Under the pieces are notes generated by a model that was given only the letters and a program-made list of their open reading frames with translations, ran no database searches and was not told the origin of the DNA. From an uncultured Hippea sp. (GTDB lineage: Bacteria > Campylobacterota_A > Desulfurellia > JAADFJ01): a DNA stretch of 19,583 bases. This document shows positions 2,443 through 5,548 of this stretch, piece after piece. The stretch is taken from assembly GCA_913009315.1 (NCBI GenBank), contig CAJVZA010000032.1:1-19583 (forward strand), given 5' to 3'. The first letter of the stretch is position 1. Every line of letters begins with the position of its first letter. The position numbers and the translations under genes are program-made.

Positions 2443-2929
2443 GAATAAGTCTCTTTTTTCGTTCGCTCACTCTCATTTTTGCAGCCTCGTATAATTGTTT
2501 TTCATTCTCAGAGTTAAGCAGTACGGTCGGCACTTCTGTTGGTTTTCCGTTCTCATCCAATGCAACCATTGTAAAAAAGGCTGAGGTTGTTGGTGTTCTT
2601 TTGCCGCTTATCATATTTTCAGATTCAACTTTAACCTTAATTTCCATAGAAGTTCTGCCGGTATATGTCAAGATTGCCTTAATAATAATCAGATCTCCTA
2701 TATAGACCGGTGATAGAAATTCCAAACTGTCGACTCTTGCTGTTACCACATTTGTGCGGCAGTGCCGTCTTGATGCAACACCTGCAGCTGCATCCATGAG
2801 TTTCATAACCACTCCGCCATGAACATTGCCCTGCGCATTTGCATCCTCAGGCAAGGATTCATGTATCAATATAACTTTACTTTCCTTCGGACTTTTGCTA
2901 TATCGGGGTCGTGTCTTTACATTTGACAT
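2429..2929 (-). CDS. Hotdog-fold acyl-CoA thioesterase
   Basis: The 166-residue protein should hydrolyse acyl-CoA thioesters in the cytoplasm. The hallmark is NAQGNVHGG at 31-39 followed by MKLMDAAAGVAS, where D46 corresponds to the conserved acidic residue on the central hotdog helix. DSLEFLSPVYIGD follows and is typical of YciA/BACH-like enzymes. One hotdog domain is present, so the enzyme would work as an oligomer. Substrate length cannot be read. The start is unusual: residues 1-8 (MSNVKTRP) are encoded by the terminal repeat of the RAYT element. The ATG directly follows the RAYT stop, and AAGGAG lies 5 bases upstream. No other ATG occurs before the conserved domain, so the ancestral start was probably displaced. 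The C-terminal codons lie in a repeat family A fragment. The hotdog core itself looks intact. Confidence 0.88.
   Translation of the reverse strand: MSNVKTRPRYSKSPKESKVILIHESLPEDANAQGNVHGGVVMKLMDAAAGVASRRHCRTNVVTARVDSLEFLSPVYIGDLIIIKAILTYTGRTSMEIKVKVESENMISGKRTPTTSAFFTMVALDENGKPTEVPTVLLNSENEKQLYEAAKMRVSERKKRLIRSSR
2905..2929 (-). repeat. Left terminal inverted repeat of the RAYT element
   Basis: The 25-bp end reads GGGGTCGTGTCTTTACATTT and then GACAT on the plus strand. On the minus strand its first three bases are the ATG used by the thioesterase. It is identical to the solo copy at 342-366 in opposite orientation. Confidence 0.85.
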
Positions 2930-3895
2930 TCATTCTCCTTCTTCTTCCATTTTCCTTGTTATCTTCTCAATCATTTCCAATATCTTTTTATCGTTATCCA
3001 TTTTTTCTCCAAATCTTTTTGCCGTAACAGATACACTTGTATAATCCATATTAAACAATTTTCCTATCTCTTTTAATGGCGAAGCGGTATATTTTTTTAT
3101 CAAATACAGCGCTAATTGTCTATAGACATTGCCTCGCTTACTTTTAAACAGTTCATCTGTTTTTATGTTAAACTCATTCGATACGGCCTCTATTATCTCA
3201 TCGGGATTATAGGCAGATATAAGCTTTGTCTCTTTTATCTCTCTGTTTTTACCCATCAATTTTATCTTTTCGGTAATTTTTTCTATAAATCTATCACCTC
3301 CCAGAGCAATGCCTTTAAAAGCATTTTCTACGGGGGATTCCATTTTTTTATTTTTAATGACAAACTCTCTGTACATCTTTTGTGCCTGATCGGTTTTATT
3401 GGAAAATCTGTTTAAAATCAGCGATGTATTGAGTCTTTTTATAACAGGTTTCCTTTTATCTGTATAATCTAAAAAACTGCTGTACGGATAGTTCTCAAGT
3501 TTCTCAACCATGCCTGCCCTCATAGGATTTAGATGAATATAGGCCGAGAGAACTAATGCATAACTATCCTCATCAACAAGAATTGATTTGTATCTACCCT
3601 GAAAAACTGAGCCGGCAAGATTATATTTTGCTCTAAACCGGTTAACATAAGAGGCGTTAAGAAAGTGCATTCCGCCGGATATATTTGCAAGCGGAGTTCT
3701 GAGAAAAAGATGATAGTGATTGTTCATAAGACAGTAGGCATAACAAATGAATGAATATTTTTCAAAGGTTTCATTCATTTTATCTATGAAAACCTCTTTG
3801 TCTTTATCGGAATAAAAGATATCTTCTTTTCTTATGCCTCTTGCGGTTATATGATAAAACGCGTCTTCAAAGGATAATCTTAGAGCTCTTGCCAT
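2930..3895 (-). CDS. REP-associated tyrosine transposase with DnaA-like C-terminal domain
   Basis: The 321-residue protein belongs to the Y1 transposase superfamily (PF01797-like), single-strand DNA nucleases that cut and join DNA through a tyrosine. The HUH motif is NNHYHLFL with H60 and H62. The catalytic tyrosine is Y119 in AYIHLNPMRAG. FQGRYKSILVD at 98-108 is also typical of RAYTs. From about residue 215, a region containing DEIIEAVSNEFNI, LALYLIKKYT and MDYTSVSVTAKRF resembles DnaA domain IV, the helix-turn-helix that binds DnaA boxes. This extension is found in a subset of RAYTs and probably reads DNA sequence. No Shine-Dalgarno is visible before the ATG at 3895. The stop TGA is followed immediately by the thioesterase ATG. 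All catalytic residues are present, so the protein may be active. Confidence 0.92.
   Translation of the reverse strand: MARALRLSFEDAFYHITARGIRKEDIFYSDKDKEVFIDKMNETFEKYSFICYAYCLMNNHYHLFLRTPLANISGGMHFLNASYVNRFRAKYNLAGSVFQGRYKSILVDEDSYALVLSAYIHLNPMRAGMVEKLENYPYSSFLDYTDKRKPVIKRLNTSLILNRFSNKTDQAQKMYREFVIKNKKMESPVENAFKGIALGGDRFIEKITEKIKLMGKNREIKETKLISAYNPDEIIEAVSNEFNIKTDELFKSKRGNVYRQLALYLIKKYTASPLKEIGKLFNMDYTSVSVTAKRFGEKMDNDKKILEMIEKITRKMEEEGE
2935..2940 (-). promoter_or_regulatory. Shine-Dalgarno inside the RAYT gene that drives the thioesterase
   Basis: AAGGAG (2940-2935) lies in the last codons of the transposase gene, five bases before the ATG at 2929. The order AAGGAG, TGA, ATG implies coupled translation. 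The site belongs to the mobile element, not to the thioesterase gene. Confidence 0.75.
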
Positions 3896-3924
3896 AATAA
3901 AACATTGTATATTAAAATTGAGTT

Positions 3925-3949
3925 ATGTCAAATGCAAAGACACGACCCC
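3925..3949 (+). repeat. Right terminal inverted repeat of the RAYT element
   Basis: The copy starts ATGTCAAATGCAAAGACACG and ends ACCCC. It differs from the other two copies only by C for T at the eleventh base. It ends 4 bp before the stop codon of the EamA gene on the opposite strand. Confidence 0.85.
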
Positions 3950-3953
3950 GCTG

Positions 3954-4838
3954 CTAAACTCTTGCCCTGTTTGTTATAAGAACTCCGGTGATAACGAGCA
4001 GTCCTCCTATTATTGCGCTGATGGTTATCTTTTCATGCAGCAATATAGAAGATGCAGCTGCTCCAAAAACCGGAACAAGATTAACGAATATGCTTGTTTT
4101 TGCGGCTCCAAATCGCTCTATTCCTTTGTACCAGACGCTAAAACCAAAAAATGTAGCAAATATAGACATATAGACAACGGATGCCCACGCAATGGCAGGA
4201 TATGACAACAGGTTTTTATTTCCGTTCTCAAGCAGAGCAAAAGGAGCAAGATAGATTGTACCCAATATCACAGCGATGCCGGTAGCCTCTAAAAACGGCA
4301 ATTTTCTCATTGCTATTTTGCCTGCAACAGAATAGACAGCCCAAAGAAATGTAGCAGCAATCATAGACAGATCTCCAATGTTGAACTCTAACTTTTCTAT
4401 GAGTTCCATGGAACCGTGAGAAATGATAAACAGTACTCCCAAAAGCGAGATTACTATTCCTGCAATCATCAGAAAATTGATTTTTTCTTTTAATACAACT
4501 GCCGCAATAAGCGCGGTCAGCGCCGGATTGAATGCTACAATAAGCGCAGAGTTTGACACAAGGGTCATTTTTAGCGAATAAAGATAAAAGAAATTGTATG
4601 CCGTAAAGCCGCTTAAAGCCATAAGTGAGAGTATGAAAAAATTCTCTTTTATATCCCGGAGAACATGTTTATATTTGACTATGAGTATTATGGAAAACAG
4701 TATCGACGTTATAAAAAAACGCAAAAAGGCGTATGTGAAGAGTGGGATATAATTTATTCCCAACTTTGCGACCGGGAAGCCTACGCCCCATGCCAATGTG
4801 GTAAGAAACAGCATTAAAAGAATGAAAGAATCTCTCAC
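3954..4838 (-). CDS. EamA/DMT-family transporter
   Basis: A predicted inner-membrane metabolite exporter with ten transmembrane segments in two EamA repeats. Evidence includes WGVGFPVAKLG in the first helix, NSALIVAFNPALTALIAAVVLKE closing the first repeat, WAVYSVAGKIA opening the second and LVPVFGAAASSILLHEKIT closing it. The substrate is unknown. The frame is open upstream to an ATG at 4943, but that would overlap pgeF by 109 bp and add a hydrophilic tail foreign to the family. A GTG at 4838 overlaps the pgeF stop as GTGA and gives 294 residues, the usual family length, with the first helix right at the N-terminus. I prefer this start. The RAYT element begins just past the stop, so the 3' end may have been slightly altered. 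Confidence 0.88.
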   Translation of the reverse strand: MRDSFILLMLFLTTLAWGVGFPVAKLGINYIPLFTYAFLRFFITSILFSIILIVKYKHVLRDIKENFFILSLMALSGFTAYNFFYLYSLKMTLVSNSALIVAFNPALTALIAAVVLKEKINFLMIAGIVISLLGVLFIISHGSMELIEKLEFNIGDLSMIAATFLWAVYSVAGKIAMRKLPFLEATGIAVILGTIYLAPFALLENGNKNLLSYPAIAWASVVYMSIFATFFGFSVWYKGIERFGAAKTSIFVNLVPVFGAAASSILLHEKITISAIIGGLLVITGVLITNRARV

Positions 4839-5548
4839 TGATTTATCCGATTCTGCAGGGGAAGTCCTATGACTGCATACATTCTTCCGCTCTCCTTCCT
4901 TTTGCGCCATGAGTAAAAATAACGACTTTCGCATCCGGTGCATTGCGCGTTCAGATGGATATTGTCCTTTTGTATTCCTGAATTCAGCAGCAGTTCTTTG
5001 TTTATTGATGCCAGATCGATGAACGGTTTTCCGTTTTTCGTTTTGTAAGGATAATTACCGAATCTGCCGGCTATCTCGCAGGATACCTCATAGCAGCAGT
5101 CTCTGATGGAAGGTCCTATGTAAACCTTTAGTTCTTTTGGATCTACCCCAAATCCGCTCACGAGCTTTTCTATACAAAATCGCACAATCTGCTTATCGGT
5201 TCCGCGCCAGCCTGAATGAACTGCCGCTATTACCCTCTTTTTCTCATCGTACATAAGAATTGGAACACAATCGGCGGTTTTGATCGACAAAAACAGACCT
5301 GTGTCGTTTGTGATTATTCCGTCTGCAGCATAAATCTGTCCCGTTTCCTTTGTAACAATTATAATTTTGCTGCTGTGAACCTGTTTCGGCTGAAAGCACA
5401 GAGTAAATTTATTCGATAGGCTGGTTAAATTTGAAGCTCTCAAGACGGCTGATGAATCCGATAATCCAACAGGTATTGAGCAATTGAATGCCTTTGTAGT
5501 AAAAAATATGACAGCACCGGCTGCGTTTTGTCTTATTAGCGGGTCCAT
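4835..5548 (-). CDS. pgeF: Laccase-domain purine nucleoside phosphorylase / polyphenol oxidase (YfiH family)
   Basis: The 237-residue cytoplasmic protein belongs to the YfiH/PgeF (Cu-oxidase_4) family. Members have been assigned multicopper-oxidase-like activity, purine nucleoside phosphorylase/adenosine deaminase activity and a role in removing misincorporated muropeptide precursors. The metal-binding residues are all visible: H58 in QVHSS, C94 in KTADCVP and H111 in AAVHSGWRGT. IGPSIRDCCYEV and the C-terminal SGRMYAVIGL are also characteristic. The full family length is present. The start ATG overlaps the MATE gene by 13 bp and the stop overlaps the preferred GTG of EamA, indicating translational coupling. 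Confidence 0.93.
   Translation of the reverse strand: MDPLIRQNAAGAVIFFTTKAFNCSIPVGLSDSSAVLRASNLTSLSNKFTLCFQPKQVHSSKIIIVTKETGQIYAADGIITNDTGLFLSIKTADCVPILMYDEKKRVIAAVHSGWRGTDKQIVRFCIEKLVSGFGVDPKELKVYIGPSIRDCCYEVSCEIAGRFGNYPYKTKNGKPFIDLASINKELLLNSGIQKDNIHLNAQCTGCESRYFYSWRKRKESGRMYAVIGLPLQNRINQ

Follow-up and report, generated by a model that had tools for sequence, protein, structure and literature searches.

A terminal-inverted-repeat transposon end appears to provide the Shine-Dalgarno sequence, start codon, and first codons of an acyl-CoA thioesterase gene

Within the 19,583-nucleotide stretch of DNA analyzed here (the window), the minus strand carries, in this order, an EamA transporter gene, a mobile element of 1,047 bp with one gene inside (2904 to 3950), and an acyl-CoA thioesterase gene. 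As read from the sequence, the ATG in the element's right terminal repeat is the only plausible start of the thioesterase gene. An account in which a terminal-inverted-repeat (TIRYT) transposon inserted at the gene junction and brought its own Shine-Dalgarno (SD) sequence and start codon, with loss of the native start, is in our judgment very probably correct as a whole. The features on which it is built are collected in Table 1.

Table 1. Features at the junction of the element and the thioesterase gene, in window coordinates
Feature	Position	Strand	Remarks
Hotdog acyl-CoA thioesterase, 166 aa	2429..2929	-	4HBT, residues 33-106
Right terminal inverted repeat	2904..2929	-	Inner 24 nt form codons 1-8 of the thioesterase gene; from repeat pairing
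Transposase TGA stop	2930..2932	-	Directly before the thioesterase ATG and in frame with it
Shine-Dalgarno AAGGAG	2935..2940	-	In last transposase codons, 5 nt ahead of the thioesterase ATG
TIRYT transposase, 321 aa	2930..3895	-	Y1_Tnp, residues 11-121; Bac_DnaA_C, residues 231-290
Putative element promoter, TTGACA-N16-TACAAT	3904..3931	-	11/12 consensus match
Left terminal inverted repeat	3925..3950	+	Holds TTGACA, a putative -35 box
EamA-type transporter gene	3954..4943	-	Stop codon 4 nt ahead of the left repeat

A repeat search of the window identified the terminal inverted repeats, which are 26 nt long and complementary at 25 of the 26 positions. Genome-wide, 22 copies of the repeat were found at no more than three mismatches and none of a reversed control pattern; thus, the repeat pattern is not a product of chance. 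The gene inside encodes an IS200-like Y1/HUH transposase with a Y1_Tnp domain (PF01797; E value of 1.9e-10, 41.4 bits versus a cutoff of 23), in which the HYH motif is readable in NNHYHLF, and with Bac_DnaA_C at its C terminus (PF08299; E value of 7.9e-14, 51.9 bits versus a cutoff of 31.5). In the excerpted accounts, the TIRYT group comprises Y1 transposases between terminal inverted repeats, many starting with GGGG, and often with Bac_DnaA_C (PMC3733652, PMC6006769). Long terminal inverted repeats rather than REP palindromes, as found here, are the criterion for this group; of the GGGGWSAS motif, an optional feature of some TIRYTs, GGGGTCGT fits six of eight positions, and GGGGTCAG, present in many of the relatives surveyed below, fits it. 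The first-pass annotation had placed the thioesterase ATG and codons 1 to 8 in the 25-bp repeat of a RAYT element. The location stood; the length and the class were revised, in that the flanking repeats begin with GGGGTCGTG, carry no GTAG tag, and pair mutually with no self-palindrome reported, and the NCBIfam REP_Tyr_transpos score of 67.3 bits is below the curated cutoff of 80. The element is a TIRYT transposon and not a REP-flanked RAYT.

At the right end of the element, the minus strand reads GAA-GGA-GAA-TGA through the transposase stop (2932 to 2930), and the thioesterase ATG (2929 to 2927) abuts this TGA in the same frame. The order claimed in the first-pass annotation, AAGGAG within the last transposase codons followed by TGA and ATG, is readable in the sequence, and the predicted pairing of AAGGAG with the anti-SD sequence (-8.8 kcal/mol) was the strongest among the 12 window genes checked. 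The repeat had been said to end near codon 9, and it does so after the first base of that codon (ATG TCA AAT GTA AAG ACA CGA CCC C/GA), covering codons 1 to 8. No ATG, GTG, or TTG occurs in codons 2 to 20, and the in-frame starts that follow ATG1 are TTG21, TTG26, GTG40, and ATG42. Codon 42 is the next in-frame ATG, with the 4HBT domain beginning at residue 33 and the fold at residue 11, in agreement with the earlier claim that no other ATG lies ahead of the hotdog domain. Translation of the thioesterase gene by way of the transposase gene may be one option; an SD of this strength would also permit independent initiation.

The thioesterase was identified by its 4HBT domain (77.4 bits versus a Pfam cutoff of 20.6), and the closest solved single-domain chain is 1vpm, an acyl-CoA hydrolase. 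Against the YciA equivalog, it scored 76 bits, below the NCBIfam cutoff of 162. In the AlphaFold model, mean pLDDT is 54 at residues 1 to 10 and 95 to 98 at residues 11 to 80, and most blocks between residue 11 and about residue 150 reach at least 95, giving a confident fold from residue 11 onward; strand E19-24 is part of the modeled fold, and S17 is nearly invariant across 30 homologues. Start positions were then compared among 39 homologues from other genomes, with starts assigned by a heuristic rather than taken from annotation. Twenty of the 39 have 7 or 8 residues ahead of E16, corresponding to query residues 8 and 9, and the nearest relatives (44 to 48% identity in A1) start at query residue 8 in almost all cases. 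The N termini of these element-free homologues consequently fall mostly where the repeat ends, and the opposite outcome, element-free homologues that share the first residues, was not seen: none of the 39 begins with MSNVKTRP. Together, the homologue starts and the low-confidence tail indicate that the repeat encodes a tail of about 8 residues on a complete hotdog enzyme, and this MSNVKTRP(R) tail is probably disordered.

The same element, site, and junction occur in a related species (G001; JAADFJ010000094.1, locus L023), with 91.8% nucleotide identity over 6.5 kb. Past the repeat, the two thioesterase genes differ by 23 synonymous and 7 nonsynonymous changes, for a dN/dS of 0.080 (Fisher P value of 2e-10), the lowest of the five genes compared; the values were 0.216 for the transposase and 0.116 for EamA. 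By these counts, the thioesterase gene is under strong purifying selection since the divergence of the window's genome (G000) and G001, which implies that it has been working in the shared arrangement. Both genomes are drafts of about 88% completeness. The search for an empty site within the family covered G001 and G002 and no further family genome, and no element-free orthologous locus was found there, as G001 shares the insertion and G002, the next genome of the genus, has no thioesterase match. The EamA gene of G002 sits in a different neighborhood, where it is followed by a gene that we take, from reading its sequence, to encode an elongation-factor-P-like protein. Joining the present-day flanks yields no start codon in frame with the thioesterase, so that either a small loss of target sequence or later decay must be assumed. 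Between the element and the stop codon of EamA, the left flank in G001 has kept a purine-rich stretch, AAGAAGGGGAAGGAAG; this stretch is missing in G000 and is possibly a remnant of the native ribosome binding site.

The start signal is also found at the ends of related elements. Two identical copies (1,056 nt) of an element 63% identical to the present one lie at different places in a genome of the same class (G009), showing that the architecture moves as a unit. Their right end, GGAGAGGAAATGAATGTCAAATG, has the same SD-TGA-ATG order, and a genome outside the class (G051) has AAGGAG...TGAATGTC at its element end. In the relatives G009, G051, and G071, TGAATGTC belongs to the repeat. Anti-SD energies at the element end were -8.7 in G001, -8.6 in G009, and -8.8 in G051, and the frames that follow the ATG at the G009 and G051 ends are 15, 9, and 23 codons long. 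Since the signal is present where no gene is fused to it, it belongs to the element end and did not arise to serve the thioesterase gene.

These results suggest the following course of events. A TIRYT would have inserted before the split of the two related species, at the junction of EamA and a co-directional thioesterase gene, with its right tip landing at the position of the native thioesterase start codon. The purine-rich end of the transposase gene would serve as the SD (AAGGAG), followed by TGA and ATG, and ribosomes would start at the repeat ATG either directly at AAGGAG or by reinitiation after the transposase stop. Transcription would come from the promoter with the -35 box in the left repeat, from the upstream operon, or from both. 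Made redundant by the element, the native start was likely lost at or after insertion. The left and right repeats can form an RNA duplex of -45.9 kcal/mol; in a transcript from upstream of the element, the paired repeats could hide the ATG, and transcription from the element promoter would leave the left repeat out.

Three other explanations of the junction were weighed. The element might have inserted upstream of an intact gene whose real start is TTG21 or TTG26, making the repeat-encoded extension accidental. Both codons are present in frame, but a start at TTG21 would remove E16-S17-K18-V19, including the nearly invariant S17, and touch strand E19-24; furthermore, among the 39 homologues no start was placed at this position, and none of the window genes checked has a stronger SD than the repeat ATG. 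We consider such an internal start very improbable. It is also quite improbable that the thioesterase gene was a passenger brought in with the element rather than a resident gene hit by it. Neither G002 nor the remainder of the class has a close homologue, which would fit a passenger, as would the distance of the nearest relatives in the other collection (about 44 to 52% identical, many of them in Desulfobacterota-like MAGs); however, the inverted repeats close the element ahead of the thioesterase gene, no repeat copy lies beyond that gene before 342 to 366, and no such gene accompanies the mobile G009 copies.

A further possibility is that selection tuned the SD and start after insertion to drive the thioesterase gene. 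A domesticated coupling of this kind would explain the intact transposase gene, which is constrained (dN/dS of 0.216) and has been kept at the same site in both species. Against it, an equally strong SD-TGA-ATG is present in G009 and G051 with short following frames and so predates the fusion, and coupling does not need constraint on the transposase amino acids; we regard this explanation as unlikely. Insertion of an element that already carried the start signal at the gene junction is the reading retained here.

To place the locus among other elements, TIRYT relatives were surveyed in 290 genomes, yielding 58 nonredundant loci with a recognizable right repeat; gene calls were open frames plus Pfam matches, and right ends were compared with left ends. 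In 49 of the 58 loci, the transposase gene terminates within the right repeat or immediately at it, and at 24 loci the stop is the TGA of the tip TGACCC. The suggestion that unrelated genes beside related elements would have starts of the same origin found support at two loci. At L251, a CCA-adding enzyme (tRNA nucleotidyltransferase) begins with MSRPDP followed by IVEIKLIAEKYPDSYIVGGAVRD, where MSRPDP is repeat encoded; PolyA_pol begins at residue 21, and the next standard start, GTG23, falls inside the domain. At L250, the sole standard start before the domain of a glycosyltransferase 2 protein is a GTG at the inner repeat edge, with the domain beginning at residue 11. For both genes, no plausible start other than the one supplied by the repeat is apparent. 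At three further loci (L224, L239, and L248), an ATG within the repeat is in frame, but there are later start candidates as well.

Several other survey genes start no more than 6 nt from the repeat tip. The downstream ATG is at +0 of the tip in L224 and L230, at +1 in L247 (glycosyltransferase), at +4 in L225 (hexapeptide transferase) and L249 (epimerase), and at +6 in L245 (ABC permease); the weakest of the tip-start cases is L230, whose downstream frame matched no Pfam family. Frames of at least 120 aa with an ATG between -30 and +20 of the tip were present at 14 of 54 right ends versus 5 of 55 left ends (Fisher P value of 0.024), in a modest sample counted by hand with G001 left out and with cutoffs set after the data had been seen. 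Judged from these predicted genes, repeat-supplied starts recur at a few loci, and their enrichment at right tips is only suggested. SD strength was considered as a family-wide adaptation and rejected, as it is only weakly raised (-7 kcal/mol or lower in 14 of the 58 loci versus 15% of background 20-mers). Co-directional neighbors outnumbered opposed ones 33 to 19 on the right flank (P value of 0.07) and 37 to 13 on the left (P value of 0.0009); because adjacent bacterial genes are commonly co-directional anyway, no preference is claimed. The frame of the CCA-adding enzyme (L251:2492-4000) extends, at residues 470 to 503, into the first part of a glycosyltransferase 2 domain. At eight loci (L233, L244, L248, L249, L251, L261, L263, and L264), the stop of an upstream co-directional frame lies 22 to 38 nt inside the left repeat, and the element may therefore also replace the 3' ends of genes.

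The element shares with the TIRYTs, or TIRtrons, of Di Nocera et al. 2013 (PMC3733652; TnpAREP-like subclass 2.1.2 in PMC6006769) a Y1/HUH transposase with a Bac_DnaA_C C terminus and long terminal inverted repeats starting with GGGG. Dispersed copies of the repeat, and an overlap of repeats with the 3' end of the transposase gene ("3'ov"), are likewise known from these accounts, which in the excerpted parts describe no repeat-donated start codon, ribosome binding site, or N-terminal codons for a neighboring gene; unlike the loci described there, the thioesterase locus has a stop-start junction in frame with the neighboring gene (PMC3733652, PMC6006769). It is already known that mobile repeats add codons to bacterial genes: the excerpted reports describe RPE, RU-1/2/3, and ERIC-type repeats inside coding genes that add codons to host proteins, including RU-2 in wbbJ (YP_0349), where N-terminal codons come from the mobile repeat (PMC10969869; PMC2759123). 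As described there, those are nonautonomous repeats of roughly 100 to 170 bp (PMC10969869; PMC2759123), whereas at the thioesterase locus the end of an intact element gives the SD, the start, and 8 codons, with the transposase gene intact upstream. REP tips supply stop codons to flanking ORFs, GTAG repeats giving TAG, according to the available part of one account (PMC3733652). Here, in contrast, the signal supplied by the tip is one for initiation, in addition to the stop of the transposase gene itself in relatives. Insertion sequences form promoters from a terminal -35 box, and the left repeat of the element, which holds the TTGACA of the putative transposase promoter, resembles them in this respect; the difference is that at the thioesterase locus the translation start is also element borne.

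An intact transposon that donates a ribosome binding site, start, and N-terminal codons to metabolic genes, recurrently in one family, is not described in the excerpted literature on TIRYTs, RPE, and RU/ERIC. That TIRYTs are recurrent donors of start codons, having given a new ribosome binding site, start, and N terminus to the thioesterase gene and, in other bacterial groups, to genes for a CCA-adding enzyme and a glycosyltransferase, is a serious possibility that we advance tentatively. If so, a transposase gene that runs into the right repeat beside in-repeat ATGs would allow insertion at operon gene junctions without polar effects, a route by which a transposon could enter an operon without silencing the downstream genes. 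One such event would be enough to create a new N terminus, as it apparently was for an enzyme of tRNA CCA-end maturation. For annotation, a start codon within a repeat tip can be the start of a real gene, and the first residues of such proteins would be without homologues for good reason.

Further observations concern the element and its repeat. With no SD and its ATG only 8 nt past the putative -10 box, the transposase gene would give an mRNA almost without a leader. Extra searches in three small phyla found few further copies, and the viral contigs searched matched neither the repeat nor the transposase. The thioesterase gene aside, the longest frame opened by a repeat copy was 64 aa in G000 and 78 aa in G001. 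A solo repeat copy, ATGTCAAATGTAAAGACACGACCCC, lies at 342 to 366 of the window, just beyond a minus-strand gene (380 to 2209), with a GTT prefix like that of the element's left end. Most of the solo repeats in G000 (L001 to L019) have GAGTT ahead of ATGTCAAATG, as in the left end, and none of these close copies has the transposase-end TGA; having GAGTT in its place, most look like left-end derivatives. Contig C2 of G000 has three solo repeats in one orientation, about 700 to 800 bp apart. The two identical G009 copies (L182 and L201), in a single-contig genome, have ATA-GCA-CGG instead of ATG in the transposase start region, and their identity extends about 10 nt past the left repeat and 3 nt past the right, which may mark the real borders of the element or a target common to both copies. 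In addition, a slightly different repeat type, ATGTCAAATGTTGAGACATGACCCC, forms an inverted pair 37 bp apart in G000 (L020/L021; G000:C29:18550-18636), giving an 87-bp MITE-like unit.
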